DNA of 64,000 bases from a virus, in IMG/VR virus record IMGVR_UViG_3300042516_001956, positions 1 through 64,000 of that record. One strand, given 5' to 3'. The position numbers and the translations under genes are program-made. A model generated the notes under the pieces. The model worked only from the letters and a program-made list of their open reading frames with translations. It ran no database searches and had not been told where the DNA came from. This document shows, one piece after another, positions 206-50,168 of the stretch. Every line of letters starts with the position of its first letter. Positions within the stretch are counted from its first letter, which is position 1.

Positions 206-955
206 TTAACAGTTCCATTTCCTTAGGGCTTTATTAATACGTGAATCTGGATCACGTGCTGTTTCTGCTGATGTTAATCTCTTCTTCATGCCGCCCATTC
301 TGGCACAAAATGATTTACGACGATTTGCTGCTTTAGAACCGGGCTTCAACTTTGATGGCTTTGTTGTAACAGCCATTGATAACTTTGAACCAGGATTTGC
401 ACGACGATATGATTCAATGCCTTTACGATTCAAACCACCAGATTCAGATTGACCTTCTTTACGTGTCCATGCTTCACCCTCATCAAGTTCAATTTCTTCT
501 TTATTTAACTTTGAATGAAATTTTGAAATAGCACGATCCATACCGGCATATCTATTTGATATATCTTTTTTTATTTTTTTATAAGCAAGAAACTTTTCTC
601 TTTGTGTTCCACCACGAACTCTACTTCCTTCTAATTGTCTAGCATTCGTACTTGCTTTATCCAGATAAGAACCTAAAGTTGATTTAGATAATTCATTCAG
701 TTCCACTTCTTCACTTGCTCTGATTGACTTGATTTGAGCATCCGTTGGTGCGCCCTCTGCACCAGGTTTTCTCATACGCTCACCACGGGCTCTTTTGGCA
801 CGAATGTTTGCCCACAAACCTGGGCGCTCTTCTTCTAGTTCTTCAACTTCTTCTTTGACACATGAACCAGGAGTATATGGTTTTTTGCCTGGCACAGGTT
901 TATAACCAGACCAGCACTGACCTGCTTCATCTAAAAATTTATTAAATGATTTCAT
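206..955 (-). CDS. Predicted head-packaged internal protein, protease-processed
   Basis: 249 residues, starting in a 4-base ATGA overlap with the stop of the 1007-residue gene upstream. The N-terminus MKSFNKFLDEA closely resembles the T4 internal-protein capsid-targeting peptide MKTYQEFIAEA, with a gp21-type (L/I)xE site after E10. Two more sites of this type, ELNE (ends E88) and ELDE (ends E159), would divide the protein into three pieces. The last piece is basic, contains RRKSFCARMGGM and ends RKWNC, a short module I remember from many marine phages. No enzyme motif is seen. Inference: a prohead substrate of the phage protease whose fragments enter the cell with the DNA. Cleavage and packaging are not shown by sequence alone. 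Confidence 0.6.
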   Translation of the reverse strand: MKSFNKFLDEAGQCWSGYKPVPGKKPYTPGSCVKEEVEELEEERPGLWANIRAKRARGERMRKPGAEGAPTDAQIKSIRASEEVELNELSKSTLGSYLDKASTNARQLEGSRVRGGTQREKFLAYKKIKKDISNRYAGMDRAISKFHSKLNKEEIELDEGEAWTRKEGQSESGGLNRKGIESYRRANPGSKLSMAVTTKPSKLKPGSKAANRRKSFCARMGGMKKRLTSAETARDPDSRINKALRKWNC

Positions 956-3900
956 ATGAAGTTTCTCTTTTTAAATGTTGTAAGTGAGATACCTTTTTTC
1001 TTTAACTCATCTTCTTTTTGATCACCGATGCTTGCTGTTGTTTCATCGCCAGTCAATTCACTGATATTCTTTGGCACAACTTGTGTTGCTTTGCCCTTCT
1101 TACTTAGTTTCTCACCCATATCACGTGCTGGAGATTCTCCTGAAGCTGCCATTGAAAGACCAGGTTCTATACCTTTGTCGATTGATTCTTCGATTTTCTT
1201 TTGAAAGTTTTCTTTGATTGACGAGAGACTGATTGTTCTTCGCTCTTCGGCAACTGGCTTGTCAAGTCTTGGTTTGTCTTTTCCTCTTGAACTGGTTCCG
1301 ACTTTTCCAAGTTGTTTTGCTGACGGCGTGGAACTATTCTGTCCATAAACTGCTTCAATTGCATTATTAGTTGGTGAATAAACTTCATCTCTATCCTCTT
1401 TTATTTTAATAACATACTTACTTCCTACTTTGTGGACTGTGCCACCATTTACATGTGCTTCTTTTGCTGCCGATGCTCTTAGTAAGAATGTTCTTGGCTT
1501 TCCGTGTCTATCAGATAATAACTTTTGTTTTTTAGTTTCTGTTTCTTCAAACTGTTTACCAATCAACTTCGTACCCGAAACATGTTGAATCATTTTCCAT
1601 GCTTCTTTGTGATTTTTATTTGCAAGATGTTCTTTGAATTTTTTCTTTTGTTCTGGTGTTGCTTTCTGATGAAACTTCATCACTTCCATCATGCCAATGT
1701 TACCCTCATACGCAGCTTCACTGATTTTGCCCTTACCAAAACTTGATACATTAATTGGCTCACCTTTACGTTCTGGATTTGGGTCATGACGGCGTTTAGC
1801 TGCAACAGCAGATGCACGTTCTTTTTTACTTAATGATGCACGTTTTTCATTAGACATGCATTTTGGTTTTGCTTCACCTGGTTCACGAGCGCAAGGACCG
1901 ATTGCTTCACCTTTGCTATTGATACGTTTCCAACCACCCTCTGGATGTTTTGGGTCAAACCAATTGCGTAAATCTTCTTTGATAAGTGGCATACCCAAAC
2001 GAAGAAGATTGTATGCGCCTGAGTCAGACATTGTGTTTACTTCTTCTTGTTCAGTCATTTCTTCTTCATCTGAACGCAGAAGTTTAAATGTTTTTGATAC
2101 TTCTTCTGCTGTATCGCCAGTGATTGTAACTGTCACTGCTTCAGATAAAAAGTTTTCAAACTTGTCGTTGGTGCTTTCGTTCTTTGTTTTAGGAAGTTTG
2201 GACTTTGATTTAAGGTCTTGTAGATGCTTTTTTTGTCCTGGTTTTAGTTGTAATTCTTTGGTGCTTGCTGAACCAGAACCCATAACAGGCAATTCTGGTG
2301 TTTCTTTTTGTTTCTTTTCAATCTCAACAAGTTTACCATGAACTGAACGATGTGTTACTTTACCATTTTTACCATAACGTCCAAATCCATAATACTCAAG
2401 TCCTAATTTGTTTCCTTCTTCTTGATGCCCAGCATCTGCATGTGGTTCAACACTTTTCTTAACTGGTGCCGTGTCTTTCTTTCCTAATTCATTTGCAATC
2501 CATTGTTTTGATTGGTCATTCTTAGGAGCAGCAGCAACAAACTTTTGAACATCTTTAAAGATGCTTTGCAACTCTTTTGTTTTTGCTTCAACAACTTCTG
2601 GTGGTGCTGAACGCAAGTCTTCTGAATTATCAAATTCGACGTAGTTATCGCCAAAAGTTTTTGCGTGTTCAACACGTGACGCTTGAACTGCATCCCATTT
2701 CTCTTTACGAATATCTTCTGGAACAGTGCGACCACCGCGTTGACCACGTTCAACATTTCTTTGACGAGAAACTTCATCTGCGGTATTTACCATTACCATT
2801 TTTGTTTCGTAACCCAGTGCTTCCAACTTCTCTTTAATCTTTCTATACTTCTCTACATCATCACCAGTACCGTTGATGATAATACCATTACGACCATGAA
2901 GTGCAAGACGTTGACGAAGTTCTGTAATATTTTTTGCACGTTTACGAACTTCATTACGCTGTTTCTCTTCACTCTCAGGCATTTTTTTATCAAGGTCTTC
3001 TTTATCCATCAGATATTCTAATGCTTTATCTGAATTGATTTCCGTTAGACCATGACCATCTAGTGTATTACTCAGAACATAATCTTTGCCTGAGCCTGGT
3101 CCGCCACCTAAGAAAACTGCCTTGAAGATACCTTTATCGTGTACACCTTCAGTCAGTGTTTCTTCTTTGACTGTGTGATAATATGCTTCAGCATCTTTTT
3201 TGGATTTGAATGTTCTTTTTTGAGATGAAATTGTGCCATGAACTTCATACTCAACATGGTCAGAAGTTCTTCCTGCAGGATTTGTTTTACGAACAATCTT
3301 TGGCTCAGTCTTTACTGGCTTGATTATATACTTGCTGAATCTATTCAAATCATTTTCATTCAGTTCCACTTCTTCTTTAAGATTCATGCCTTTACGGACA
3401 TCATTGAACATTTGTTTGACATGTGCTTGTGACATTTTTGATGGAGCACCTTTTTTGAAAGTATCAAAGTCATTGTTTTTTGCTGCTTCACGCATTTTAC
3501 TTGCAGAAATTCCTTCAACACCCTCTGCATCTGGATCACGTTCACCAGAAGTATGCACAGTAATTCTTTTGAAATTGAAACGGGCGCCTTCATGAGTACC
3601 ATTATATTTTCTCAACAGTTTAGCAAATTCACCACTTCGGTCTGAACCGCCTACCATATGAAAGTCTGTTACACCTTGTTTGTACAATTTCTCTGCATGT
3701 TCAAAAAATGTAGGTGCGTCTTTGGATGCTGCTATGAAATTGGTGCCAGGAAATGCGTTTTTGGCGTGTTTTAATTTTTGTGCTACTGAGAGAGGATTTT
3801 TCTTTGGATCCTGTGAGTGTGACAGGACTATGTGATGTGAGCCACCAACTTGTTTGGCAACTTGTTTGACTTTGTAAACTAATTTTTCATGTCCGTTTGT

Positions 3901-3975
3901 GATTGGATTCATACGCCCGAAGGCTAAAACGGCACTTTTTTCTTTTTGCTCTCGCAAAAAATCTCTAAATTTCAT
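952..3975 (-). CDS. Capsid-targeted polyprotein: nucleotidyltransferase + P-loop kinase
   Basis: 1007 residues. Residues 1-10 (MKFRDFLREQ) resemble the T4 capsid-targeting peptide, with a cut expected after E9. Residues 15-170 form an NMN-adenylyltransferase/cytidylyltransferase-like domain: GRMNPITNGH at 20-29, in which the first His of HxGH is Thr, and ISASKMR at 156-162. Residues 285-455 form a P-loop kinase resembling zeta-toxin or polynucleotide kinases: GGGPGSGKD at 290-298 and an Arg-rich lid near 405-420. Residues 670-745 are a basic Cys-containing module. Protease-type sites LNE207, LTE276, LSE612, ISE753 and ISE973 fall between these units. GAGG lies upstream of the ATG, and a late-promoter-like 12-mer is at 4004-4015. 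Enzyme families are fairly clear; substrates are not. Packaging is inferred. Confidence 0.7.
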   Translation of the reverse strand: MKFRDFLREQKEKSAVLAFGRMNPITNGHEKLVYKVKQVAKQVGGSHHIVLSHSQDPKKNPLSVAQKLKHAKNAFPGTNFIAASKDAPTFFEHAEKLYKQGVTDFHMVGGSDRSGEFAKLLRKYNGTHEGARFNFKRITVHTSGERDPDAEGVEGISASKMREAAKNNDFDTFKKGAPSKMSQAHVKQMFNDVRKGMNLKEEVELNENDLNRFSKYIIKPVKTEPKIVRKTNPAGRTSDHVEYEVHGTISSQKRTFKSKKDAEAYYHTVKEETLTEGVHDKGIFKAVFLGGGPGSGKDYVLSNTLDGHGLTEINSDKALEYLMDKEDLDKKMPESEEKQRNEVRKRAKNITELRQRLALHGRNGIIINGTGDDVEKYRKIKEKLEALGYETKMVMVNTADEVSRQRNVERGQRGGRTVPEDIRKEKWDAVQASRVEHAKTFGDNYVEFDNSEDLRSAPPEVVEAKTKELQSIFKDVQKFVAAAPKNDQSKQWIANELGKKDTAPVKKSVEPHADAGHQEEGNKLGLEYYGFGRYGKNGKVTHRSVHGKLVEIEKKQKETPELPVMGSGSASTKELQLKPGQKKHLQDLKSKSKLPKTKNESTNDKFENFLSEAVTVTITGDTAEEVSKTFKLLRSDEEEMTEQEEVNTMSDSGAYNLLRLGMPLIKEDLRNWFDPKHPEGGWKRINSKGEAIGPCAREPGEAKPKCMSNEKRASLSKKERASAVAAKRRHDPNPERKGEPINVSSFGKGKISEAAYEGNIGMMEVMKFHQKATPEQKKKFKEHLANKNHKEAWKMIQHVSGTKLIGKQFEETETKKQKLLSDRHGKPRTFLLRASAAKEAHVNGGTVHKVGSKYVIKIKEDRDEVYSPTNNAIEAVYGQNSSTPSAKQLGKVGTSSRGKDKPRLDKPVAEERRTISLSSIKENFQKKIEESIDKGIEPGLSMAASGESPARDMGEKLSKKGKATQVVPKNISELTGDETTASIGDQKEDELKKKGISLTTFKKRNFI

Positions 3976-4003: not shown

Positions 4004-4015
4004 ATTGTATTTAGT
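4004..4015 (-). promoter_or_regulatory. Late-promoter-like 12-mer
   Basis: The minus strand reads ACTAAATACAAT about 30 bases upstream of the polyprotein ATG. The identical 12-mer lies upstream of the tail-sheath gene (56032-56043). Its TAAATA core is shared with the T4 late box TATAAATA. Assignment as a variant late promoter is inference. Confidence 0.35.
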
Positions 4016-4017
4016 AT

Positions 4018-4728
4018 TTAGTAGATTTCAAGCGTTCCGGTGCTTGCCATGATACCTCGGCAATGAATGATGTCTAATTCTATAAGCTTCTCTTGGTCTA
4101 TATTGAAGAAATGTGCATGTTCGGTGTCAACTCCAGTTTCCATAATGACATTAATATTACGCTTACATGTGATAAAATAGTCATCCAGAAGACTTGGACA
4201 GAAAGAAAATAAACGAGTAATCAATAAATGAGTAAATATCTCTTGCCGTTCTCCTTGCATCCATGTTGGCATACGATTCTTAAAAATATATTTTCCCCAA
4301 TGGTCATGGTCTCTAACATCAAAACCTTCATCTAAATCAGTTCTGGCAGAAATTTTAAAAATTCTATTTACAGAATGCATTAGACGCTGTAGCATCGGTT
4401 CCTGCTTCAAAAGTAAAATTGTTTTTAGCATCAAAACATTTTCAGCTTCACTTTTTTTACCAATTGATGCAAACTGGGAAATATCACTATCTGCGGAAAA
4501 GTCCGCAACAAAATCAACATATCTTTCTAGTGCTTTAATTTTTTCATCTTCAACTTTTTCGGGTGAACCTTCAGTCAAAAGAATTATTGCTTCTGGGCAC
4601 TTTTCACGTAATGATTGTAAACCCTCAATAGTTTGTTTTAGTCTATCTTCACGACTAATAACACCAATATTGGAATTAAGTGCTGATGTTACGATGAAAA
4701 GTTGATTATCGGGTATTATTCGTGCCAT
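4018..4728 (-). CDS. Conserved protein of unknown function in sugar operon
   Basis: 236 residues; the ATG at 4728 is preceded by GGAG and overlaps the dehydrogenase stop by 13 bases. The N-terminal half reads as an alpha/beta fold (LFIVTSALNS, then SREDRLKQTIEGLQSLR and AIILLTEGSP). I see no nucleotide-sugar DxD motif placed convincingly, no Rossmann glycine loop and no membrane segment. Its position as last gene of the 10.4-4 kb sugar operon suggests a role in making or attaching the sugar product. I do not recognise a named family with confidence and give no reaction. Confidence 0.5.
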   Translation of the reverse strand: MARIIPDNQLFIVTSALNSNIGVISREDRLKQTIEGLQSLREKCPEAIILLTEGSPEKVEDEKIKALERYVDFVADFSADSDISQFASIGKKSEAENVLMLKTILLLKQEPMLQRLMHSVNRIFKISARTDLDEGFDVRDHDHWGKYIFKNRMPTWMQGERQEIFTHLLITRLFSFCPSLLDDYFITCKRNINVIMETGVDTEHAHFFNIDQEKLIELDIIHCRGIMASTGTLEIY

Positions 4729-5390
4729 TCAAACTCCGGGAACATTTTAATTGTTTTATATCTAGACTTAGCTTTTAGAACATGAACCATCATATCAACA
4801 ACTTCTTTTGGATTCATGAACTTATCTTTTTGTGGATGATTCTTTTGCATTGGTGTATTCATACCACCAGGATGAATACTCGTAACTCTAATCTTTTCAA
4901 GTTGACCATCAAGTTCTTTTCCTAAAACTCCAGCAAATGCTGTGATAGCATGTTTAGATGCTGCATACACAGCTTCGTATTCTATTTCGGAAATACCCGC
5001 AACAGAATTAATAAAGAAAATATCAGAGTTTTCTTTCATTGTTTTTAGTGCTTGATGTGTAACATACATCGTGCCTTTGACGTTCGTATCAATCATACGA
5101 TCAATCATGTATGGTGATGAATCGTGTTTGAAGATACCCCATTCATAAACACCAGCATTGTTTACAAGAACATCAATATACGTGCCAATGTTTCTAAATG
5201 CAATCTCAACACTCTTTGCATTTGATATATCACATTCAATCCACTCAAAGGTGTCTGGATAAGAAGATAAGTCCATTGGTGGCTGTGAACGTGAAATGCC
5301 ATAAACGAAATAACCTTCATCAATTAATCTATTGCTTATCTCGTGACCTAAACCATAACTACAACCAGTAACAACAGCAACTTTACGCAT
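4716..5390 (-). CDS. Short-chain dehydrogenase/reductase (SDR)
   Basis: 224 residues. The ATG at 5390 is chosen over a GTG one codon upstream because a strong AGGAGG stands four bases before it. Classical SDR features are present: the NAD(P)-binding TGCSYGLG near the N-terminus, NNAGV around residue 87, a catalytic Ser in FINSVAG, and the YAASK Tyr/Lys pair. The length is normal for single-domain SDRs. It probably oxidises or reduces a hydroxyl/keto group on the cyclitol or sugar intermediate made by the cyclase encoded just upstream, whose stop overlaps this start by one base. The family is certain; the substrate is inferred only from the operon. Confidence 0.85.
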   Translation of the reverse strand: MRKVAVVTGCSYGLGHEISNRLIDEGYFVYGISRSQPPMDLSSYPDTFEWIECDISNAKSVEIAFRNIGTYIDVLVNNAGVYEWGIFKHDSSPYMIDRMIDTNVKGTMYVTHQALKTMKENSDIFFINSVAGISEIEYEAVYAASKHAITAFAGVLGKELDGQLEKIRVTSIHPGGMNTPMQKNHPQKDKFMNPKEVVDMMVHVLKAKSRYKTIKMFPEFEWHE

Positions 5391-6526
5391 CACACCTCCT
5401 CAAATATATCAATAGCCAATTTTATTTCTTCATCTGTTATATCGTTTACTATTTTATAGTTTCCGATAGAAATAGGAAGAGGTGCGAACTGATTTCCATT
5501 ACGATGTTTGGTCGCATCAGACAGACTTTCTTTCAACATTGCAATTTTAGTAAAGTCTGGATGAAACGTTTTTAATTTCAATCTTTTTGCAACATTAAAA
5601 ATTCTTTTCAGTGTAGTTATATCAATGTAGTGTCTAGTAAATGCTATGCAAGAACTGAATAAGCAATCAAGTGCCACGGCTTCACCATGCAATAAGTCTG
5701 GTATGTTTGCCATCTCAATCACAGGACTAAATGTGTGACCAAAATCTACACAACGGTCAAGTCTTTTCTCCCACAAGTTTGGACCAAGTTCTGCAATCAT
5801 ATCTGTAATGGCAAGATTAATTACACGAACTGGAACTGCACCGTACTGAAACTTTTCTTCAATCAACATCTCAGCATTTTCTTCCAACAACTGAAAAAGT
5901 TCTGGAGATTTGATTACAGCAAGTTTGAATATCTCTGCAATACCATTGACGATTTCACGTTCACTTTGTGTCTTAATAAACTTTTTATCAATATATGTTG
6001 CAATCGGTGGATAATATGCACCAATACGATTGCGACGACCTAAATGATTTACTGCAACTTTCGAGCCGACAGAGGCATCAACAATTGCCAAAAGTGTTGT
6101 GGGGATTTTGATATATGGAATTCCACGACGATATATGCTGCAAGCAAAGCCAACAATATCAAGCAGGACACCACCACCAATTGCAAGTATTTCTTCACGG
6201 CGTAATACTCCTATATCTTCAAAAGATTTAAGTATGTGGTTTAGATTTTCCCATGTCTTATTCTCTTCTTTACAGTCAACATAAATTAAATGAATATCTA
6301 ATTTGTTTTCTGTAAAATACGTATTAATTTTATCACAGTATAAAAGAGAAACTTCTTTGTCAATAACAACGATTCTGCGATTACTGCTCGATAGATTTAC
6401 AATATCTTTATTCTGAGGATTTAATATATCAGCAGAGTATGTTAATTTAAACTCAACAGGTAGTTCTGTTTTTACTGACCAAGTTCGTTTGAACTTGTCA
6501 TAGTCCATCATAAAATCTAAACTCAT
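5390..6526 (-). CDS. Sugar phosphate cyclase (dehydroquinate synthase / EEVS family)
   Basis: 378 residues. Family signatures are GGGVLLDIVGFACS (117-130), PYIKIPTTLLAIVDASVGSK (137-156), NGIAEIFK with E198 and K201, GHTFSP (263-268) and HGEAVA (280-285). The last three supply the expected zinc ligands E198, H264 and H280. In dehydroquinate synthase the third block normally reads GHxxGHAxE. GHTFSP and the preceding LGRRNRIGAYYPP resemble the subgroup that cyclises sedoheptulose 7-phosphate (2-epi-5-epi-valiolone synthase and relatives). Neighbours are a kinase-like protein, a nucleotidyltransferase, an SDR and glycosyltransferases, which suits cyclitol or modified-sugar synthesis rather than the shikimate pathway. 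The family is secure; the valiolone-type specificity is inferred. Confidence 0.8.
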   Translation of the reverse strand: MSLDFMMDYDKFKRTWSVKTELPVEFKLTYSADILNPQNKDIVNLSSSNRRIVVIDKEVSLLYCDKINTYFTENKLDIHLIYVDCKEENKTWENLNHILKSFEDIGVLRREEILAIGGGVLLDIVGFACSIYRRGIPYIKIPTTLLAIVDASVGSKVAVNHLGRRNRIGAYYPPIATYIDKKFIKTQSEREIVNGIAEIFKLAVIKSPELFQLLEENAEMLIEEKFQYGAVPVRVINLAITDMIAELGPNLWEKRLDRCVDFGHTFSPVIEMANIPDLLHGEAVALDCLFSSCIAFTRHYIDITTLKRIFNVAKRLKLKTFHPDFTKIAMLKESLSDATKHRNGNQFAPLPISIGNYKIVNDITDEEIKLAIDIFEEV

Positions 6527-7476
6527 TTCATTGCCTTATAAAACAATTCACATGCATGAACATAAAAGTATTTTGCTTTGTTAATATCACCAGCAATCAG
6601 TTTAAAAGGAAGCATACGAATAAACTGAGAAGCTTCTAGTATATCTATAAGCTTCATTTTATCTTCTGGCAATTCAGAGATAAAGTGTTTATTAAACAAA
6701 TCAAATTGGTCTGCTCCTCTGTTTGGATTATACAAGTCAATACCAATCACACGAACGTCACGGTCGTTAATAAAACCATAATGACTGCGTGAGCATTGCA
6801 GTACCTGAGCATAATCAAGATACTTTGTATTCCACATACTCTCATCATATACATCAATAAATATTACACGGTCTTCTTCAAACGAATACATGATATTTTC
6901 TAATGTAGGATTGCCATGTATATTACACTCTTCTTCGTTTGCCAGTTCACTGAAATAATTCTCTAAATCATAAAGATAACCTGCAATACCAATGACTGTA
7001 ACATTGTTTAGACCATATGTGCCACGATAAAAAAATTCTTCAAACGATGGTATCTTAATCGCATCTGTAATCTTTTGTTGAATCTCTTCTTCAAAGTAAA
7101 GTTTTGGTGCGCCTTTGATGGGTTCTTTTTTGATTGAATGAAGTGTGTTCAATCCTTTCCAAACAGCTTGACTAATTTTGAAGATTTGCTCTTCATTTAG
7201 TATGTCGTTGCTGAGGATGCTTTTGATATCACGAAAGCCTTCAAGATATTCAATATCAAATGATGCTGTAGTGTTATCAGCATCTACGTTCGAAACTTTA
7301 GGAAATAAGTTAGGATAAAGTGTATTATACTCTTGCAGTTTTTTCAACTGTGAGTACCAACGCATAAAACCATATTCACGATTCTCGATTCGTGAGACTG
7401 ATTTGGTGATTGTTTTCTTTTCGGGTGTCCAGTAAGTTCTGCTTAATGAACCACCTTTTAATGGTATTGTTTTCAT
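6523..7476 (-). CDS. Aminoglycoside-phosphotransferase-fold kinase, catalytic Asp replaced
   Basis: 317 residues with 4-base overlaps on both sides. The C-terminal half carries the APH/choline-kinase layout: a Brenner-type block IHGNPTLENIM, then VIFIDVYDES for the metal-binding Asp, and YLDYAQVLQ, as in capsule-cluster phosphotransferases. In active members the loop reads HGD; the codons here clearly give HGN, so the usual catalytic base is Asn. An N-terminal glycine-rich lobe (LKGGSLSRTYW) is present. It may be an inactive or altered kinase, or use another carboxylate. It sits between the nucleotidyltransferase and cyclase genes, where an anomeric or cyclitol kinase would be expected. Confidence 0.65.
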   Translation of the reverse strand: MKTIPLKGGSLSRTYWTPEKKTITKSVSRIENREYGFMRWYSQLKKLQEYNTLYPNLFPKVSNVDADNTTASFDIEYLEGFRDIKSILSNDILNEEQIFKISQAVWKGLNTLHSIKKEPIKGAPKLYFEEEIQQKITDAIKIPSFEEFFYRGTYGLNNVTVIGIAGYLYDLENYFSELANEEECNIHGNPTLENIMYSFEEDRVIFIDVYDESMWNTKYLDYAQVLQCSRSHYGFINDRDVRVIGIDLYNPNRGADQFDLFNKHFISELPEDKMKLIDILEASQFIRMLPFKLIAGDINKAKYFYVHACELFYKAMK

Positions 7477-8207
7477 CTTGCATCCAATGCTCTACGTGCT
7501 ATCTCAATTCCATATTCTTGTGGACTTCCTAATACAATGGTTTCTTGAGCATTAGTTAGACCATTCATAAAAATTTTCTTGCCAGATAAAATCATATTTT
7601 GAAGAACATCAGAAACATATAATTCATAGTTTGTTTGAAGTAATTTATCATAATGTGCCATGTAAATGTCTGCTGATGAAAAACCATACAGTCCTGATGA
7701 TGCATAAGGTGAGATTTGTTTCTTTTCTATAATCTCAATTACATTCTCTTCATATGCACGAACGTATGAATACTTTGGTGAATTGCCTATGAACACATCA
7801 ACATATCCATTGTAGTATTCACCCCGCATATTTAAAGAAAGTGACTCTAAATTTCTACCAATAACAATCGTGTCTGCATTATGAATGAATGTTGGTAAAG
7901 AATTTTGATACAATTGAGCCACACCAATCGCTGCCGTATGTGCTTGACCTTGTGTGTCACCAATGTAAAGAATATTGTTTTCGTTTAGACCAAGTGGCTT
8001 GATTGTTTCAAGTAACTGTTCTTTAAAATAGATATCACGTTTGTTTGCAACAAGAATAGTTTGCTGTGTATTACCAAAGTTCTTTAGAATTTCATGAATA
8101 ATCGTTGTGTCATTCCATGGCAACAGATACTTTGGAATGTCAAAGCCAACATCATGAAAGCGGGTGTTATAACCCGCCATGCAAATAACAAGATTTACTT
8201 GAGCCAT
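7473..8207 (-). CDS. Sugar nucleotidyltransferase (NTP transferase fold)
   Basis: 244 residues. The N-terminus CMAGYNTRF followed by DIPKYLLPW is the signature loop and lysine region of the GlmU/RfbA nucleotidyltransferase fold. IGDTQGQAHTAAIG and the HNADTI metal-binding segment follow at the expected spacing, and ASSGLYGF resembles the sugar-binding strand. The length fits a single catalytic domain without a left-handed helix. The likely reaction is NTP + sugar (or cyclitol) 1-phosphate to NDP-sugar + pyrophosphate. The start overlaps the upstream gene by 13 bases and the stop overlaps the kinase-like gene by 4. Nucleotide and sugar are unknown. Confidence 0.75.
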   Translation of the reverse strand: MAQVNLVICMAGYNTRFHDVGFDIPKYLLPWNDTTIIHEILKNFGNTQQTILVANKRDIYFKEQLLETIKPLGLNENNILYIGDTQGQAHTAAIGVAQLYQNSLPTFIHNADTIVIGRNLESLSLNMRGEYYNGYVDVFIGNSPKYSYVRAYEENVIEIIEKKQISPYASSGLYGFSSADIYMAHYDKLLQTNYELYVSDVLQNMILSGKKIFMNGLTNAQETIVLGSPQEYGIEIARRALDAR

Positions 8208-8908
8208 TCTTCAAAGTCCTCACGTAGTAACGAATGCCATGTTCCATTGTATGGACCTGGTGGAAATGGATGATTGACATCACAATACACAAGATTTTCA
8301 CCCACAAGGCCATGTAATTTCCAATTAGCACTCATAAAATCTTCCATCATATATTGTACACCAGAATCATAGAATTTGTCAATATGATTATATGCATCTG
8401 CATATTTGTCCATATTTTCTGATGATGAGAATGCAAATTGGTCATTACCAAAATCTCGTCCAGGCGTTACTCTGCAATTTGGAATGTATAGTTTGTTAGG
8501 ATTTAAAATATCAAAAGGTATTGGAGTGTTGATTGCAAAATCAAATCTTGACCGAACGACCCAATCAAACTTCATATCGTTATATTCTTCGTACTCTCGT
8601 TTGGTTCGCATACATTCATTGATAGCAAGCAACTGAGCATATGTTGACATACGACCATCTTTTACTTTCCAGTTTGGTGATGGCGGTGGCGTATTCGTAT
8701 ATTTTGATAAATCGACTGTAGGATTTGGTGAAGTAATAAAACTTGCTGCATTATACTTTGCGGAGATTGCTTGCATTTGTTCTGCTGGCATTTCCCAAGA
8801 GTGAAGAAATACAGTTACATCATTTCCTTTAATGATATTTTTGTAATGATACTCATATCCTTTTTCCCACATACGAGGTTGACCAGAAATACAAAGTGCT
8901 ATCTTCAT
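8195..8908 (-). CDS. Putative glycosyltransferase (CISGQPR family)
   Basis: 237 residues. It begins MKIALCISGQPRMW and has WVVRSRFDFAI in the middle, an arrangement found in small glycosyltransferase-like proteins of capsule and phage sugar clusters. The Arg-x-Arg-Phe-Asp segment could supply a DxD-like acid, but a full GT-A motif is not evident. ATGA overlap with the methyltransferase gene indicates translational coupling. Role inferred from context: transfer or modification of the sugar built by this operon. The family label comes from recall of similar sequences, not from a search. Confidence 0.5.
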   Translation of the reverse strand: MKIALCISGQPRMWEKGYEYHYKNIIKGNDVTVFLHSWEMPAEQMQAISAKYNAASFITSPNPTVDLSKYTNTPPPSPNWKVKDGRMSTYAQLLAINECMRTKREYEEYNDMKFDWVVRSRFDFAINTPIPFDILNPNKLYIPNCRVTPGRDFGNDQFAFSSSENMDKYADAYNHIDKFYDSGVQYMMEDFMSANWKLHGLVGENLVYCDVNHPFPPGPYNGTWHSLLREDFEEWLK

Positions 8909-9612
8909 AGTAATTCAAGTCCTACGTTCTGTCCATTATCAACAATACCAAATGGTTTCAGGTTTTCTTTTTCCATCACAACCATACTATTATAAAATGT
9001 TACTGAGTATAGATTATTATAAGTTATCAGTGCTTCTGTAGAAAGAGGCGTTCCAGTGCTATGCATCTGATAAGCAGGAGCATAGAAATGTTGTTGATTG
9101 ATTGTATCAGTAACTCGTTTTGAGTGTTCAAGGAAAGTATTTGGACCACGGAATGAACCACCCCACTGTGTCCAATAACTTGTATGAGTATCTTCACAGA
9201 TAAAAACGCCACCCTCATTTACATGAGGAAAAACTTTATTCATTGTTACAATCTGATGATTCATAATATGTGAACCATCATCAATCACAATGTCAAACTT
9301 ATCTTGCTTTGATAGCAAATCGTTCCAGAAGTTTTCATCTCCTTGATCACCAATTACAATCTCAACATTACCTTCATATTGATGTCGTTTACAATTCTCA
9401 TCAATATCAACGGCAACAATTGTTGTGCCTTCACCAAAATATTTTTGCCATAATTCAATAGAACCACCATTAAGAACTCCAATTTCCAAGATTCTTGGTG
9501 CTTTGCCTACAAACTTGCTCAGATGTTTCTCATAAACATCAAAATAGCCTGACCACTTTGAACAACCTTTTTCAAGCTTTAGATATAAATCTACAATTTT
9601 ATTTGTCGTCAT
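8905..9612 (-). CDS. SAM-dependent methyltransferase (class I)
   Basis: 235 residues. The ATG at 9612 has GAGG seven bases upstream and is preferred to a TTG at 9624. Motif I is ILEIGVLNGGSIELW, the acidic end of strand 2 is VAVDID, and FDIVIDDGSH is motif IV with the metal-type DDGSH seen in sugar O-methyltransferases of the TylF/cephalosporin-hydroxylase-like group. CEDTHTSYW follows. The length is typical for a stand-alone sugar methyltransferase. It lies between two glycosyltransferase-like genes, so methylation of a sugar hydroxyl is the natural guess; the acceptor is unknown. Confidence 0.7.
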   Translation of the reverse strand: MTTNKIVDLYLKLEKGCSKWSGYFDVYEKHLSKFVGKAPRILEIGVLNGGSIELWQKYFGEGTTIVAVDIDENCKRHQYEGNVEIVIGDQGDENFWNDLLSKQDKFDIVIDDGSHIMNHQIVTMNKVFPHVNEGGVFICEDTHTSYWTQWGGSFRGPNTFLEHSKRVTDTINQQHFYAPAYQMHSTGTPLSTEALITYNNLYSVTFYNSMVVMEKENLKPFGIVDNGQNVGLELL

Positions 9613-10441
9613 ATTTTGCCTCAATCACTTTCTTCCAGTCGGGAACTCTGTCGTACTGATGTACAATAGTATACTTTATTCCTTCTGAAGTTACAACTTT
9701 ATCACCCTCTAATTTCGGTGATGGTTCAAGTAGCACTGGTTTAAATAAATCTATTTTGCTTGGGTCAGCAGTTGTGCCTAATTGACATGCCCATCCCGTT
9801 TCGGATGTTGTATACATTGATGAATTGATATATGGATGTCTTGAAATCATTACGTTGAATACCGCTTGGTCAACGATAGGAATTGGACGATTGATACAAT
9901 TCAAAAACAATTGAAGTACCAAATCTTTCATTGCATGTCCACGACCAGCAAGAACACCTACATTAAAAATAGTATTGTTCTTAAAATCTTCATAAATGCC
10001 CTGTCCATAGCACTGTGTTAGATTCTCACGGCCCCATGGCTCATCTTTGTATTTTAAGCTTTCAGAAGAAAAAATCAAATCTTCTTTTTCAGGTAAATTT
10101 TTCTCAATCCATTCAATCGGATTCTTTTGAAAAATAACATCTTTAACATCTGTAGTAATTACAAATCGATATTGATTATCTTTGAGTAGTTTATAGATAT
10201 GAACAAAACGTTCAACGTGTACCATCAACTGTGATTGATATATAAGATTACCGTCAGCGTCTTGATTGAATGCAATAATTGAAAAGCCTGCGTCAGTTAC
10301 TTTTTGTACAGTATCTTTATCGCAGTTCATGAGAATCAGGACTTTATCACCTTCAAATCCTGATGCATTGATTGAGTTAACCCAAAATTTTAATTTTGAC
10401 CAATCATAATTGGTCGCACAGCCCACTATCAAGTCTTTCAT
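9599..10441 (-). CDS. Glycosyltransferase, GT-A like
   Basis: 280 residues; GGAG is seven bases before the ATG. FVITTDVKDVIFQKNP (around residues 94-109) is a GT-A style DxD region. Further on, IFNVGVLAGR and PIVDQAVFNVMI match the acceptor-side segments of glycosyltransferases that resemble the nucleotide-diphospho-sugar transferase family. There is no signal peptide or membrane segment, so it is a cytoplasmic enzyme. It is the first gene of the 10.4-4 kb sugar operon. Donor and acceptor are unknown; plausible targets are virion protein, host envelope glycan or modified DNA. Confidence 0.6.
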   Translation of the reverse strand: MKDLIVGCATNYDWSKLKFWVNSINASGFEGDKVLILMNCDKDTVQKVTDAGFSIIAFNQDADGNLIYQSQLMVHVERFVHIYKLLKDNQYRFVITTDVKDVIFQKNPIEWIEKNLPEKEDLIFSSESLKYKDEPWGRENLTQCYGQGIYEDFKNNTIFNVGVLAGRGHAMKDLVLQLFLNCINRPIPIVDQAVFNVMISRHPYINSSMYTTSETGWACQLGTTADPSKIDLFKPVLLEPSPKLEGDKVVTSEGIKYTIVHQYDRVPDWKKVIEAKYDDK

Positions 10442-10962: not shown

Positions 10963-11235
10963 TTAGCCTCTTGTCAATGTCAGAATTTTTTGCATTTGTT
11001 TTTCAATTACTGGACCACGATTTGGCCAGTGGATGTATGGCTGACTTGCTGTTTTGTATAAATTAGTAAGAAATGGCATAATAATCTTTTCTAATTGTTG
11101 AAGTCTTGCTTTGTATTCTTCAACAGTTTCATCTTTCTCTGCGATGACTGCTTCATACTCCGCCTCATCAACTGCTGTGAAGCCGAAATCATCGTCTGCA
11201 TATTCTGCTAAAATTTTATTAATATCGTATTCCAT
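10963..11235 (-). CDS. Conserved phage protein, unknown function
   Basis: 90 residues from the ATG at 11235, which shares one base with the stop of the ligase-like gene. An in-frame ATG at 11247 is possible but has a poorer ribosome site. The N-terminal half is acidic (MEYDINKILAEYADDDFGF), a charged helix follows that could form a coiled coil, and the C-terminus has YIHWPNRGP and ends LTLTRG. I recall this layout from many T4-like marine phages but know no function. It is co-transcribed with the ligase-like and IscA-like genes from the 13229 late promoter. Confidence 0.6.
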   Translation of the reverse strand: MEYDINKILAEYADDDFGFTAVDEAEYEAVIAEKDETVEEYKARLQQLEKIIMPFLTNLYKTASQPYIHWPNRGPVIEKQMQKILTLTRG

Positions 11236-12458
11236 TATTTGTCCCATGCTTTCTGTGCGTTAAAATTTTGTCTGCTAAATTCCAATCTATCCACCAATTT
11301 AAGTGCTTTACCTAAATGGTCCACCGCAACGAATCCTTCAGGAGCAGTAATTCTAAAACCATCGTCTGTACGAACAAATGTGCCAATACTTCTTATAGTT
11401 TCTAGTTTACGAATAATCATGAGCTTCGCATCTACAATTAAATTCATCAAATCAAAAATCATTTTAAGTTGCACAGCATTTGAACGATAAAAACGCATGA
11501 CTTCATTTTTTTCTTTTATACGTTTTTGTTTTGTATCTTCTTTCTTTGCTGCAAGAATCTCTTTGTTTAGTTTTGCTTCAACCCAATTTAATAATTCTTG
11601 TGTGTGAATTCTTGTGTCAGCAATTTTTTTACCCTCACGTACTTTTGTATTATTAAATGTTTTAATTTGTGTCAAAAAAACATCTGATGCTGAAATTCGA
11701 TTTAGCGTCAATGCAGGTATAGTCTGAAATGTTCTACCAGCTTGTGAGAGAATCGATGTAATCTCAGCAGTTTCTCCTTCAGTAAATGTGACTGAACCCG
11801 ATGCGTCAGTAAATGATGCGTCACGAAACCAAACATCTTTAGTTTGTTTTAAATGTCCAATATCAATATTAAATGATGCTTTCATCGTATCTAACGATTT
11901 ACCCGAATATGCTGTATGAAATACCACACCAATCTGTGCAGCAAGCATCGCCTGTGCTAATTTAGATTTAACTGGCACAGCATACACAATCGTATTTGGT
12001 TGAAATATAATATATTCTTCACCGTCAATCGTTTCTTTTGAGATGTCTCCCTTAGAGAACATCATATCACCTTGCAACACACCTTTAATGCCTAACTTAG
12101 GTAAATATGCAAGTGCAAGTTTAAGTTTCTGATTAAGTCCCTCACCAGGATGATTCTCATCGATATCTTTATCAGTATAATTCAATTTTGCATTTTTTGC
12201 AAACACTGATTTAGTACCAACGAAAAATTCTCCATTTTCTGGATTCGTGCCAGCAAAGATAGCAGGAGCACCATCCCACTTTGTGGTGACATTTATCTTT
12301 GAGCCAGTATGTCCAGCTAACATATTACGCAATGAACGTAAAAAATCTATCGATTCACGTGCGCCAGAAACACCACGATTCAATACATTATCTTCCAAAT
12401 GTTCCAAATGAAGGTTTTTTCCTTCCATACTTTCCTTTAAGTATTCTTTAAATTTCAT
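11235..12458 (-). CDS. RNA/DNA-ligase-like nucleotidyltransferase with capsid-targeting N-terminus
   Basis: 407 residues from the ATG at 12458, in ATGA overlap with the upstream stop; a TTG at 12470 is rejected. The N-terminus MKFKEYLKES resembles the T4 capsid-targeting peptide, with a possible cut after E9. TTKWDGAPAIFAG (near residues 62-74) has the KxDG adenylation motif I of the covalent nucleotidyltransferases. GVLQGDMMF, EEYIIFQPNTIVYAVP and a later VKSKL resemble motifs III, IIIa and IV/V. The family matches phage proteins usually left as unknown (I recall DUF6267). Likely lysine adenylation; whether it seals RNA or DNA is unknown. Packaging is inferred. Confidence 0.7.
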   Translation of the reverse strand: MKFKEYLKESMEGKNLHLEHLEDNVLNRGVSGARESIDFLRSLRNMLAGHTGSKINVTTKWDGAPAIFAGTNPENGEFFVGTKSVFAKNAKLNYTDKDIDENHPGEGLNQKLKLALAYLPKLGIKGVLQGDMMFSKGDISKETIDGEEYIIFQPNTIVYAVPVKSKLAQAMLAAQIGVVFHTAYSGKSLDTMKASFNIDIGHLKQTKDVWFRDASFTDASGSVTFTEGETAEITSILSQAGRTFQTIPALTLNRISASDVFLTQIKTFNNTKVREGKKIADTRIHTQELLNWVEAKLNKEILAAKKEDTKQKRIKEKNEVMRFYRSNAVQLKMIFDLMNLIVDAKLMIIRKLETIRSIGTFVRTDDGFRITAPEGFVAVDHLGKALKLVDRLEFSRQNFNAQKAWDK

Positions 12459-23888: not shown

Positions 23889-24293
23889 TTAGTCAGGTCT
23901 ACCTTTTTTACCTATATTATATTTAGCAACAAGTTCCCAATCATCTTTTTCTTTAAAAGAAATAATTTTAATTTGATGAATTGGTGCCATATTTTCTTTT
24001 AGTATATCATAGTTTACAATCTTTAGCAAGCCCCATTCTTCAAGTAAATTAGCAATTGCATTTCGTCTTTGTATATCATTTTCGGTAATAGTTGACAGTT
24101 TACCGTCCAGTGCAAACAATTCTTTAAAATGAACTATGTAATATTTACCTTGTTTATGAAGAATGTGACAGGATTGATAAAGAACACGTTCTTTTCTACT
24201 CGACACTCCAATACGTGTCAAAGTTTCACGAACTTTTAAAAAGTCATCTTCATGTTTTAGAACGACTTCAACGAATTTGGATAAATCAACCAT
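23889..24293 (-). CDS. regA: RegA translational repressor
   Basis: 134 residues. Strong resemblance to T4 RegA: EDDFLKVRETLTRIGVSS, VLYQSCHILHKQGKYYIVHF, LLEEWGLLKIV and IISFKEKDDWELVAKYNIG align block by block with the T4 protein as I recall it. RegA binds the translation start regions of early mRNAs, its own included, and blocks ribosomes. It lies immediately after gp62, the T4 order. AGGA precedes the ATG. The slightly longer C-terminus (GKKGRPD) is the only difference noted. Confidence 0.95.
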   Translation of the reverse strand: MVDLSKFVEVVLKHEDDFLKVRETLTRIGVSSRKERVLYQSCHILHKQGKYYIVHFKELFALDGKLSTITENDIQRRNAIANLLEEWGLLKIVNYDILKENMAPIHQIKIISFKEKDDWELVAKYNIGKKGRPD

Positions 24294-24294
24294 A

Positions 24295-24681
24295 TCATTT
24301 TCCTAATCCACCTCTATGGGTTTCTTCTTTTATTTGTTGGATTTGTTTTTCGCTAAGAAGGCGCAAAGCTTCTCTTGCTTTGGAATTAGACAGGCCAAAA
24401 GCCAGTTTGATACATTCCAAATCATCGTTTTTTTCTGCCTTAGCCCACTTCGCAAACGGTCTTTTCATAGACCTTATGGTATTTAGTAAAAAGTCGTTTT
24501 GAAGCTTTTTGTCCAGGTGATGCCGACGATTCATCTCGTTGGCAAAAAGAACACAGTCACTATGTTGAGACAAAGCACGATTGGTCAGAAAAGGTTGATA
24601 ATCTTTCTCGGACAAATCGTCAACAATCAGTTGCTTTTTGGACTGAAGAATAGCTTTAACGTAGTCAAATGGGTCGCTCAT
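24295..24681 (-). CDS. gp62: Clamp loader small subunit (gp62)
   Basis: 128 residues, shorter than T4 gp62 (about 187). It is recognised by position between gp44 and regA and by the helical pattern DYQPFLTNRALSQHSDCVLF, then NEMNRRHHLDKKLQNDFLL and KRPFAKWAKAEKNDD, characteristic of the marine T4-like gp62. It pairs with gp44 to load the gp45 clamp. The start overlaps the gp44 stop region by 4 bases, implying coupled translation. Confidence 0.9.
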   Translation of the reverse strand: MSDPFDYVKAILQSKKQLIVDDLSEKDYQPFLTNRALSQHSDCVLFANEMNRRHHLDKKLQNDFLLNTIRSMKRPFAKWAKAEKNDDLECIKLAFGLSNSKAREALRLLSEKQIQQIKEETHRGGLGK

Positions 24682-25607
24682 TTAAACTCCACGTTGGCCA
24701 TCAGTTCAGTCAGACAAGCAACAAGATTGATTTCTTGGTCAGCAACGAATGCTTGTTTATATTGATAGTCTGCAATGATAACTACTGCTTGTGGAATACT
24801 CTGAGGCTTTGCAATGTCATACAAAGCATCATATAGTTTACGAAAGAATGTCGTGCTATCAATATCAGTTGTCGCTGCCCATTTACGGACGGACGTAAAG
24901 TCTTTTTCTTTCAGATGTTTGACAATCTGTGAAATAGAAATGTCACCAATCTGAGAGAGGATGCCTACATCAATCTTGCCGAGTTGAGAGTAGCGTTGTA
25001 GTTCATTGATAGCACGACGAAAATCTGGAAAGTGTTTTTTGATAAGTTCAGCAATCACTTTCTCATCATATTCTACTTTTTCTGTGTTTAGTATGTGTGT
25101 GATGCGTTTGAAAAACGCTGATGCCATTTTGGTTTTTTCACCATTCTGCAAACGAAAATCGATTACAGCGCACCGACTGTGTAGTGGCTCAATGATTCTG
25201 CTTTTGAAATTACAAGTGAAAATGAATGAACAGTTTACTGCAAACTCTTCAATGGCATTTCTTAGAATTGCTTGTGCGTTTGGAGTTAGATAGTCAGCTT
25301 CATCTAGGATGACAACTTTACGACCACCAGTAAACGACATTGATGATGCATAGTTCTTGATTTTTACACGAATTGTGTCAACACCATTCTCATCAGAACC
25401 ATTGAGAATCATGTAGTCGCAACCGATTTCGTTGCACATTGCTTTGGCAATTGTTGTCTTGCCTACGCCCGCCCCACCAGTCAGAAGAAGATTTGGTATC
25501 TCCTTCTGCTGTACGTACTGTTGAAAAGTTTCTTTCAAGCGTTCTGGTAGAATGCAATCTTCTACCGTTTGGGGACGATAACGTTCGGTCCACAGGAGAT
25601 GTTCCAT
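24678..25607 (-). CDS. gp44: Clamp loader large subunit, AAA+ ATPase (gp44)
   Basis: 309 residues. Walker A is GGAGVGKTT, Walker B is VVILDEADYL, sensor 1 is FIFTCNFKSRI, and the SRC-type arginine finger is in EPLHSRC. The N-terminal LLWTERYRPQTVEDCILP is typical of RFC/gp44 proteins. It forms the gp44/62 complex that opens and loads gp45. GAGGAAA precedes the ATG. A T-rich tract separates it from the 56-residue gene upstream. Confidence 0.96.
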   Translation of the reverse strand: MEHLLWTERYRPQTVEDCILPERLKETFQQYVQQKEIPNLLLTGGAGVGKTTIAKAMCNEIGCDYMILNGSDENGVDTIRVKIKNYASSMSFTGGRKVVILDEADYLTPNAQAILRNAIEEFAVNCSFIFTCNFKSRIIEPLHSRCAVIDFRLQNGEKTKMASAFFKRITHILNTEKVEYDEKVIAELIKKHFPDFRRAINELQRYSQLGKIDVGILSQIGDISISQIVKHLKEKDFTSVRKWAATTDIDSTTFFRKLYDALYDIAKPQSIPQAVVIIADYQYKQAFVADQEINLVACLTELMANVEFK

Positions 25608-47012: not shown

Positions 47013-48356
47013 TTACATCAAGTTTGCAATACGGAAACCACGGTAGTAGTTGTTTGACTGTGAATCCAAACGACCTAGACCCTGGTCAGTACCTTCAGCA
47101 AATGGGTTAGCAACTAGACCGTAACGAGTCTTGAAGCCAATCTTTGGCTGGAATGTACCTGTATCAACTGCACGAACCATTTGTAGAGGAACGTATGGGC
47201 AGTAGAACATACCAGCATCGTATGCGTTAGTACCCTTGTAACCTACAACCGCAAACTCAGATGTTGAGCCTGTTGGGAAGTATGGGTCAATGTAAACTTT
47301 GATACGACCGAAGATTGTACCAGCAAAAGTATTACCAGTATCATCAACTGTTAGATTAACTTGACCAGCAAGTGCTGAGTTGTAATCAAGAATACCTGAC
47401 ATCGCTAGAGCAGAAGCTACGTCTGAAGAACAGATAACGATGTTACCTTTACCACGACGAGTTGTCTTAGCAATTTGGTTTGCTTCACGTTCAATCTGGA
47501 ATGCAAGACCTTTAATCTTTTCAACCATCCAACGACCGTTTGAATCTGTGTCAAGGTTGAATGCACCACGAGTTGTTGTACCAGCTTGACAGCCTGGTTT
47601 AGCAACTTTGTAGATTGTACGGATAACTTCACGGTTGATTTCAGCAAGAATTTCAGCAGAAAGGATATTAGCCAATTCTGTTTCTGCGTCTAGACCATGA
47701 ACTGCTTTCAAGTCTTGTGCAAGTTCCATTGAGTATTCTGCTTTCAATGCACGTGTACGTGCTGTAACAGTAACTTTCTCAATTGAGAATGCCATTTCTT
47801 GGAATGTGTTACCAGCTGCACCGTCGCCTAATGCTTCAGCAGAACCAGTAGTCATTGCGCCTGTAGGAGCAGCGTTACCAGTAAACAGATAATCTGTTGT
47901 GTTACCAGCAATTGTCATTGAAGAAGCAACGATAGCGCCGTTAGCACCAGAGAATGCTGTGTTAGCTTCGTTGTAGAATGCTTCTCCACCACCTTGTGAT
48001 GCATACTTAGTACGCATTGCAAAAATCAGACCTGTAGGACCTGTCATTGGCTGAACGCCGCAAACGTCATACGCAATCAGATTAGGTAATGAACGACGAA
48101 CTAAGCTGATAAGAATTGGATCGAAACCAGCAACTGGACCTGCAGCAGCAGCACCGCCACCAAAACCGCCTGTACCAGCAAAGTTAGTTGGTGAACCGGT
48201 CTCTTGCAGCATACCAGATTCTTTGATCATTTCAGTAGCCTGATTTTCCAGGATAACTGCTGTAACTGCCTTACGATATGGGTCAGCAATCGCTGGCAAG
48301 TCTGGATGATTTAGAACACCATCCCATTTGTTTTGTAAATTTTCAGACAAATACAT
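47013..48356 (-). CDS. gp23: Major capsid protein (gp23)
   Basis: 447 residues. The N-terminal 52 residues form the prohead delta domain ending MLQE, a gp21-type cleavage site (L50-Q51-E52), followed by TGSPTNFAGTGGFGG. The body contains FDPILISLVRRSLPNLIAYD and CGVQPMTGPTGLIFAMRTKY, diagnostic for T4-type gp23. GGAGAT precedes the ATG. It assembles on the gp22 scaffold, is cut by gp21 and expands to form hexamers of the mature head. Confidence 0.97.
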   Translation of the reverse strand: MYLSENLQNKWDGVLNHPDLPAIADPYRKAVTAVILENQATEMIKESGMLQETGSPTNFAGTGGFGGGAAAAGPVAGFDPILISLVRRSLPNLIAYDVCGVQPMTGPTGLIFAMRTKYASQGGGEAFYNEANTAFSGANGAIVASSMTIAGNTTDYLFTGNAAPTGAMTTGSAEALGDGAAGNTFQEMAFSIEKVTVTARTRALKAEYSMELAQDLKAVHGLDAETELANILSAEILAEINREVIRTIYKVAKPGCQAGTTTRGAFNLDTDSNGRWMVEKIKGLAFQIEREANQIAKTTRRGKGNIVICSSDVASALAMSGILDYNSALAGQVNLTVDDTGNTFAGTIFGRIKVYIDPYFPTGSTSEFAVVGYKGTNAYDAGMFYCPYVPLQMVRAVDTGTFQPKIGFKTRYGLVANPFAEGTDQGLGRLDSQSNNYYRGFRIANLM

Positions 48357-49517: not shown

Positions 49518-50168
49518 TTAAAGTTTTCGTAGAAAATTTTCGAAAAGTTGTAATCCAACAGTCTCAATTTCTTTGCGTGATGCTTGACGAATCTGTTTTT
49601 TAGCGTAGTCAATATGTGACTCAACAAAACGACCTTCAACATACATCCACTCTTTGTTCTCCATAATACCTTGAACAAAAGCTCCTGGTGCTGAAGGGTC
49701 AGCAACGATGTCTGCTGCTGTTGCAAGACGCAAATCATCTTGGACTAAATTGTAACCCTCTTTAGTCATTACAACTGAGCCTAGGGCACGTGAAGAAACA
49801 CCCAGATTTACACCAGAATCTATTAAATTCTTGGCTATTTGTCCATAAGGTGTTTCCATAATAAGTGCTTTACCTACAAAAGTATTTCCGTCTTCTTTAA
49901 GGCTAACAATCTTATGAGATACACGTTCAAGATTGAGTGATGGTGTATCAGGATGTCCTAGTTCGCCAAGCGCACGATTAGATTCAATAAGTTCTTTTGT
50001 GTATCGTGCGACTTCATTACGTAATGTTTTCATTTCGTACATGCGATTGTTTCGGTTAACTGTGTCACCGACAAGAAAAATACCTTCAATGTACATTTGT
50101 TTTTTACCGTCTTCTGTTTTTTCGGTAAGATATCTTACATCTTCAATATGTTCTTTAATTAGTTTCAT
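49518..50168 (-). CDS. gp21: Prohead maturation protease (gp21)
   Basis: 216 residues. The serine-protease signature of the T4/herpes protease fold is present: the catalytic His in ALGELGHPDTPS and the Ser in LGVSSRALGSV. The N-terminal IEGIFLVGDTVNRNNRMYEM is also typical. It cuts (L/I)xE sites in gp22, gp23, core proteins and probably the head-packaged proteins at 0.2-4 and 11-12.5 kb. The start shares a base with the preceding stop. Confidence 0.95.
   Translation of the reverse strand: MKLIKEHIEDVRYLTEKTEDGKKQMYIEGIFLVGDTVNRNNRMYEMKTLRNEVARYTKELIESNRALGELGHPDTPSLNLERVSHKIVSLKEDGNTFVGKALIMETPYGQIAKNLIDSGVNLGVSSRALGSVVMTKEGYNLVQDDLRLATAADIVADPSAPGAFVQGIMENKEWMYVEGRFVESHIDYAKKQIRQASRKEIETVGLQLFENFLRKL

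Follow-up and report, generated by a model that had tools for sequence, protein, structure and literature searches.

A putative head-packaged multi-enzyme precursor with conserved (L/I)xE sites in a T4-like phage fragment

Results

The stretch analysed here (the window) comprises 64,000 of the 64,055 bases of the IMG/VR virus record IMGVR_UViG_3300042516_001956 and encodes a polyprotein of 1007 residues, P0001, for which homologues were found at 40 IMG/VR loci. As this protein combines an N-terminal tag of the T4 type with conserved cut sites between its modules, it is very probably a precursor of virion cargo, which would be packed by means of the tag, cut by a gp21-type protease into separate enzymes, namely a nucleotidyltransferase and a kinase accompanied by small modules, and injected. 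The window represents a fragment of a T4-like phage in which the genes for the gp20 portal, gp21, the gp22 scaffold, gp23, the sheath and the terminase share one strand. The open reading frame of P0001 had been reported without a strand in a preliminary description of this DNA; it was confirmed and lies on the minus strand.

A tag of ten residues is enough for packaging in T4, where gp21 cuts after L/I-x-E; positions 4 and 7 of the tag matter for targeting, positions 8 and 10 for cutting (PMC9026906). The translation of P0001 starts with MKFRDFLREQ, and its first nine residues fit the tag form of about ten residues with the order aromatic-x-x-aromatic-(L/I)-x-E: F3, F6, L7 and E9 match the key positions of T4 with one residue fewer. 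The T4-form peptide noticed in the preliminary description is thus real, and each of the 26 homologues whose start is intact keeps the pattern (L or I at the first motif position, P3, in 23 and F, as FQE, in three). Orthologous nucleotidyltransferases of cyanophages carry tags that fit the T4 positions, i.e. MKKFSAFLNE↓A in S-SM1, MKNFSSFLTE↓A in S-CREM2 and MKSFLQFLKE↓A in S-SCSM1 (arrows mark predicted cut points), and in two sister groups of nucleotidyltransferases the tag ends with (L/I)xE followed by Ala in 148/148 sequences, the middle residue being free. The distant enzyme of jumbo phages of enterobacteria and Agrobacterium is a bare nucleotidyltransferase without tag; therefore, the tag is not part of the nucleotidyltransferase fold. 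Among the T4-like marine phages sampled, loss of tag or sites from retained domains was encountered in one partial case, HTVC008M. For phage C48C1 (L054, 3989-5398), the deposited start of the nucleotidyltransferase (4055) truncates the tag; an upstream in-frame GTG gives MIKNFSQYLLE↓EERE.

Conservation of the internal sites was counted in 29 aligned homologues, with the sequences reaching a site as denominator. The five sites named beforehand all exist, E207 (VELNE↓N), E276 (TLTE↓G), E612 (FLSE↓A), E753 (KISE↓A) and E973 (NISE↓L), and they fared differently. E276 and E753 are (L/I)xE in 27/27 homologues, the middle residue of E276 taking six values. Weaker conservation was found for E612 (17/26, or 25/26 when M or F is accepted in place of L/I) and E973 (20/27). 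E207 is confined to three homologues bearing the insert that follows it; the general site close by is E201 (27/27 with L, I or M), which had been missed together with E667 (24/24), E860 (28/28) and E922 (25/27). Overall, the Glu of (L/I)xE is conserved above its surroundings (excess 0.13 versus 0.00 for other Glu, P = 0.018). E312, E352, E382 and E551 were rejected as cut sites, being located in the fold of the kinase or in its tail and showing an invariant middle residue or poor conservation; the middle residue of E312 is invariant where the motif is kept, a pattern typical of structural conservation.

The presumed cutter is the gp21-type head maturation protease encoded in the window. The presumed propeptide of the major capsid protein gp23 likewise ends with (L/I)xE in this clade, with LQE, LQE, LSE and LTE and hence a free middle residue in an alignment of four relatives, so that the (L/I)xE specificity of the protease seems unchanged.

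The (L/I)xE sites behave as slots at which modules are inserted, deleted, moved or turned into separate tagged genes. Of the insertions or deletions (indels) of at least 20 residues, 38% start or end no more than three residues from an (L/I)xE cut point, versus 9% at random, a comparison that is descriptive because indel boundaries are mutually dependent; nine control motifs were without a comparable effect (best 14% versus 10%). A relative of the optional module that follows E207 is a separate tagged gene of 75-79 residues (MKTFKSFIVE↓E) in L010, L011, L012, L017, L018 and L020, and the FGRYG module directly follows the tag in the nucleotidyltransferases of S-SM1, P-SSM4 and S-RIM4. The AVTVTITGD module, located after E612 in P0001, stands after the Cys module in L023 and L041. 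The Cys module itself, correctly recognised earlier as basic (isoelectric point, pI, of 9.9, two Cys), recurs in separate genes of L029, L033, P-SSM4 and S-CREM2, the last being the virion protein gp160. In L025-L033, the slot between tag and kinase is occupied by a nucleotidyltransferase domain that shares only about 20% identity with that of P0001 and may represent a domain replacement.

In HTVC008M and the IMG/VR loci L253-L321, the kinase has a gene of its own. Separate kinases begin, for example, with MIPFILKE↓GLYD or MKVNSFIQHL(A/S)E↓G(V/L)YD, and the polyprotein has (L/I)xE↓GVHD at the same residue. The motif (L/I)xE↓G precedes the kinase in 106/106 sequences (68/68 where it is separate, 38/38 where it is fused), the middle residue being free; in the 68 separate kinases, two of which are L309-type fusions with an adenylate-kinase-like domain, it closes the N-terminal tag. 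This identity matters for an alternative in which P0001 is packaged and loses its tag, while the rest stays one multidomain effector whose internal (L/I)xE sites are relics of fusion: as the site before the fused kinase is the exact tag end of the separate kinases, fusion history alone would create it, and T4 Alt is cut at its ends only (PMC9026906). Relics would decay, yet P3 and P1 are kept with P2 free at E276 and E612, and E667 is retained through changes of the whole triplet. Furthermore, new modules enter at (L/I)xE sites, and such sites exposed in disordered linkers are expected to be cut by gp21. We consider an uncut effector improbable.

The nucleotidyltransferase matches cytidyltransferase families of PHROGs at 1e-62 and 1e-44. 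The Pfam model CTP_transf_like aligned with residues 17-95 just below threshold (20.9 versus a cut-off of 21), and none of the NadD- or NMNAT-specific sequence models of NCBIfam scored above its cut-off, TIGR00125 alone appearing below its own; the domain is accordingly labelled NMNAT-fold rather than NMNAT. Direct sequence searches of the PDB gave weak matches only, which made a fold search necessary. Residues 10-205 were modelled with AlphaFold2 from 37 sequences (predicted local distance difference test, pLDDT, 89.9), and the model was best matched by nicotinate/nicotinamide mononucleotide (NaMN/NMN) adenylyltransferases (E 7e-6, template modelling (TM) score about 0.55, 14-18% identity). 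The conserved TNGH and ISASKMR correspond to the (H/T)xGH and ISxSxxR motifs of the Rossmann-like HIGH-superfamily fold. In several cyanophage records (hits H6, H8, H44, H46 and H78) the nucleotidyltransferase is mislabelled 'ribonucleotide reductase A', an annotation error that has spread between records. The related genomes G001 (24000-24818), G003 (114786-115226) and G004 (70691-71131) additionally encode an untagged nucleotidyltransferase (MK..VVSGGFDPIH) that is distinct from the cargo enzyme.

In the kinase, Pfam Zeta_toxin (PF06414) was detected at residues 285-433 (6.9e-14; 52.2 bits versus a gathering score of 22.3). The structural model (pLDDT 79) is well folded up to about residue 500, after which its confidence is low, and it matches zeta toxin 3q8x (E 8.4e-6), polynucleotide kinase (PNK) 4gp7 and adenylate or UMP-CMP kinases about equally. 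Score, P-loop and fold place the domain in the Zeta_toxin family, a membership which alone gives no substrate. From these matches, both enzyme folds appear fairly secure, their substrates not; the NMN-adenylyltransferase-like domain and the P-loop kinase proposed in the preliminary description are thereby supported as an NMNAT/NadD-like and a zeta-toxin/PNK/adenylate-kinase-like fold, respectively. TIR-like matches of PADLOC to residues 449-551 were weak (E 7e-4) and judged to be chance. Among relatives, L281 (2400-2987) encodes a protein of the adenylate-kinase family whose tag (MKSFRDFIFE↓K) is exactly of the T4 type, with similar genes in most of L275-L320. This protein matches the NCBIfam adk model at 1.1e-43, below the cut-off of that model. 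Its gene adjoins those of a separate tagged kinase and a tagged DUF6267 protein in an apparent head-cargo operon.

The cargo may serve to replenish NAD+ or nucleotides as infection begins, an attractive idea since the tagged adenylate-kinase-family protein adjoins the kinase in relatives and NAD+ salvage is known from phages (PMC9503650), but one that we regard as rather doubtful. Phosphorylation of wall sugars or RNA ends would fit the kinase fold equally well. The same delivery may thus serve another function, with the kinase acting on wall precursors or RNA ends and the nucleotidyltransferase on a substrate other than NMN, for host takeover rather than NAD+ restoration. This option is a serious one, although we would place it somewhat below an even chance. 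It is suggested by the best fold matches of the kinase, a zeta toxin with substrate and a bacterial polynucleotide kinase, by the proposed action of zeta-like kinases of polyvalent proteins on the wall (PMC5512222), and by the low identity and TM scores of the nucleotidyltransferase relative to NadD/NMNAT; the closeness of its fold to NaMN/NMN adenylyltransferases and the nucleotide chemistry favoured by the tagged adenylate kinase beside the kinase argue against it. Counter-defence against NAD+ depletion or RNA cutting, as proposed in the preliminary description, would be one option among several.

Orthologues of the nucleotidyltransferase have been detected in virions. The 'citidylyltransferase' T4-GC190 of S-SM1 (SSM1_190) was found in purified virions (PMC3037559), and the virion proteome of S-CREM2 includes ORF154 and ORF160 (PMC10665884), which correspond to the tagged nucleotidyltransferase orthologue and to the protein carrying the Cys module. 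In S-SCSM1, ORF91 and its neighbours 89, 90, 92 and 93 were identified as virion proteins by mass spectrometry (PMC9602691). The cytidylyltransferase S-SZBM1_140, whose tag was not examined, was detected in virions with two peptides (PMC9146016). The accessible text of these papers makes no mention of a targeting peptide or of cutting of the cyanophage enzyme, and an open-access literature search for capsid targeting in cyanophages gave only a T4 review, so that an earlier description elsewhere is possible. Genes 89-93 of S-SCSM1 stand in a row (L322, 26358-31836) with clear tags only on 89 (NSLSE↓A) and 91, hence another route into the particle is possible.

One may ask whether the protein is cargo at all. 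It could be an ordinary metabolic enzyme of infected cells with an unrelated conserved N-terminus, its detection in virions being due to carry-over, which two of the proteomic papers leave open, and the jumbo-phage versions are indeed bare enzymes. The same tag, however, fronts unrelated proteins (DUF6267, DUF6321, adenylate kinase and zeta-like kinase), and the neighbours of the S-SCSM1 enzyme are reported as virion proteins as well, which makes this explanation very improbable.

Upstream of P0001 a late-promoter-like sequence, CTAAATACTAAATA, is kept in homologues. The corresponding upstream stretch contains TATAAATA, the T4 late promoter sequence, in L023 and L041, and CATAAATA in L025 and L029. 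Within the window, ATAAATA is located 22 nucleotides before gp22 and also before the gene at 53731-54276, and CTAAATA 45 nucleotides before gp18. Across the window as a whole, ATAAATA, the core of the T4 late promoter, shows no enrichment (10 versus 22 expected), and CTAAATA occurs eight times on the minus and not once on the plus strand. The informative signals are only that the core stands ahead of late genes and that CTAAATA favours one strand; they fit late expression alongside the structural genes and are no proof of it.

Further genes of the window carry tags (Table 1). The tag of the neighbouring DUF6321 protein ends with (L/I/M)xE in all four relatives. This protein has internal sites at 88 (VELNE↓L) and at 159 (IELDE↓G), and as the DUF6321 domain begins at the latter, the protein may itself be another small precursor. 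The DUF6267 protein and an adjacent 94-residue protein (DINKILAE↓Y, 10963-11247, minus strand) are kept in four relatives. A broad tag pattern was found at 2-6% of the starts of open reading frames versus 0.2-0.8% of internal Met in the window and four related genomes or fragments, rates that are descriptive since the pattern was chosen after seeing the polyprotein case; its recurrent members were the polyprotein, the DUF6267 protein, the 94-residue protein and, in part, the DUF6321 neighbour. DUF6267 genes with tag-like starts adjoin cargo genes in HTVC008M, Melnitz, C48C1 and L281. Genes resembling those of surface-polysaccharide and sugar-nucleotide enzymes lie between P0001 and the DUF6267 gene (4018-10441, minus strand), and in L011 this block stands ahead of the polyprotein.

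Table 1. Position of P0001, its predicted parts and related features in the window.
Feature	Position	Strand	Remarks
Polyprotein precursor P0001, 1007 residues	952..3975	minus	Open reading frame; 40 homologous IMG/VR loci
Putative capsid-targeting tag, residues 1-9, MKFRDFLRE	3949..3975	minus	Predicted cut after E9
NMNAT/NadD-fold nucleotidyltransferase, residues 10-201	3373..3948	minus	Ends at E201; phrog_3041 1.2e-62
Optional module, residues 208-276	3148..3354	minus	Ends at E276; among polyproteins only in L001-L003
P-loop kinase, zeta-toxin/PNK-like, residues 277-500	2476..3147	minus	PF06414 6.9e-14
FGRYG module, residues 520-556	2308..2418	minus	
AVTVTITGD module, residues 613-667	1975..2139	minus	Acidic; between E612 and E667
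Basic two-Cys module, residues 668-753	1717..1974	minus	pI 9.9; ends at E753
MMEV module, residues 754-813	1537..1716	minus	Absent in L004, L013 and L019
C-terminal part, residues 816-1007	955..1530	minus	Sites E860, E922 and E973; highly conserved tail
Late-promoter-like sequence	4008..4021	minus	32-39 nucleotides before the ATG of P0001; kept in homologues
Next gene, 249 residues, DUF6321	206..955	minus	Tag MKSFNKFLDE↓A; start overlaps stop of P0001 (ATGA)
DUF6267 protein, probable fellow cargo	11235..12458	minus	Tag MKFKEYLKE↓S, conserved in relatives; PF19782 7.4e-116
gp23 major capsid protein	47013..48356	minus	Propeptide predicted to end MLQE↓T; phrog_138 5.8e-155
gp21-type head maturation protease, presumed cutter	49518..50168	minus	phrog_207 1.7e-74

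Discussion

The following course of events appears most likely. The precursor would be made late, probably from a T4-type late promoter, and its first nine residues would take it into the prohead core as the capsid-targeting sequences of T4 do. There, the gp21-type protease would cut after the Glu of (L/I/M)xE, removing the tag at E9 and releasing modules at E201, E612, E667 and E753, and at E207 and E276 around the optional insert, with probable additional cuts at E860, E922 and E973. These steps are deduced from sequence evidence together with T4 precedent. The mature head would retain the NMNAT-fold nucleotidyltransferase and the zeta-toxin/PNK-like kinase, each in free form, together with several small proteins, most of them basic, as the proteomics of orthologues suggests. 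By the precedent of T4 Alt and the internal proteins (IPs), this cargo would then pass into the cell with the DNA.

Several points weigh against such packaging and cutting. The tag lacks one residue compared with the T4 form, and that of the HTVC008M nucleotidyltransferase is only partial (MKTLKE↓LLR). The number of (L/I)xE motifs is at the level of chance (15 in 1007 residues versus 10.0 ± 2.8 in shuffled sequences, P = 0.059), and motif number alone was therefore rejected as evidence of cut sites. Indel boundaries are not independent of each other. The virion proteomes of orthologues give proteins and not mature N-termini, and those of S-CREM2 (PMC10665884) and S-SCSM1 (PMC9602691) leave contamination or carry-over open. 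Moreover, virion detection concerns orthologues, the protein of this phage being known from sequence alone. The packaging and protease cutting postulated in the preliminary description draw strong support from comparative evidence and the orthologue proteomes, and for P0001 itself they continue to be predictions.

In a wider sense, aquatic T4-like phages might possess a plug-in cargo system in which enzymes and small proteins are swapped at (L/I)xE slots, cut by the head protease and co-injected as a ready-made nucleotide/NAD+ kit acting before phage gene expression, for example against NAD+- or nucleotide-depleting immunity. We put this forward tentatively and with more doubt than confidence; equally tentative is the composition of such a kit, which would consist of the NMNAT-like enzyme, kinases and, in some phages, adenylate kinase.

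The T4-type head-entry tag gives a reason why NMNAT-like enzymes recur in the virion proteomes of cyanophages. A short N-terminal tag ending with (L/I)xE would also predict from sequence which marine-phage proteins enter the cell with the DNA, among them kinases, an adenylate kinase and two families of unknown function, DUF6267 and DUF6321.

The T4 proteins IPI-III resemble P0001 in their short aromatic-x-x-aromatic-(L/I)-x-E tag, the form of the cut and a gp21-type protease in the genome, but they are small single proteins, whereas P0001 is a long precursor of several enzymes whose internal sites are conserved. T4 Alt is likewise a packaged enzyme delivered with the DNA after removal of an N-terminal propeptide by gp21, a step predicted for P0001; in contrast, it is an ADP-ribosyltransferase cut at its ends only, and no sequence relation to the polyprotein was found. 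The T4-GC190 proteins of cyanophages S-SM1, S-SCSM1 and S-CREM2 are homologous nucleotidyltransferases with the same kind of tag and were detected in virions; they are separate proteins of 286-409 residues, which the accessible text of the reports does not describe as tagged or cut. Polyvalent proteins (PMC5512222) also unite many effector domains, zeta-like kinases among them, in one chain predicted to enter with the DNA. They use embedded peptidases or MuF/portal fusions instead of a T4-type tag and the head protease, and as none of these core domains was found in Pfam and PHROG scans, the resemblance is one in mode of use only. In the giant phages phiKZ and SPN3US, a protease of the gp21 kind cuts inner-body or ejection proteins after Glu in a short motif, sometimes at several sites (PMC9026906), although the proteases are diverged and the cargo is unrelated to the polyprotein. 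NadR, too, joins a HIGH-superfamily nucleotidyltransferase to a following P-loop kinase in one chain, but that is a ribosylnicotinamide kinase, whereas P0001 has a zeta-toxin/PNK-like kinase and a predicted cut site between the domains; membership in NadR was rejected, no NadR model being among the NCBIfam hits. Tags, gp21 cutting and packaged enzymes are thus already known from T4, and NMNAT-like virion proteins from cyanophages. What appears to be new is the link between the T4 tag and the cyanophage enzyme, the precursor that unites several enzymes and keeps conserved cut sites within it, and the exchange of its modules in the manner of slots.

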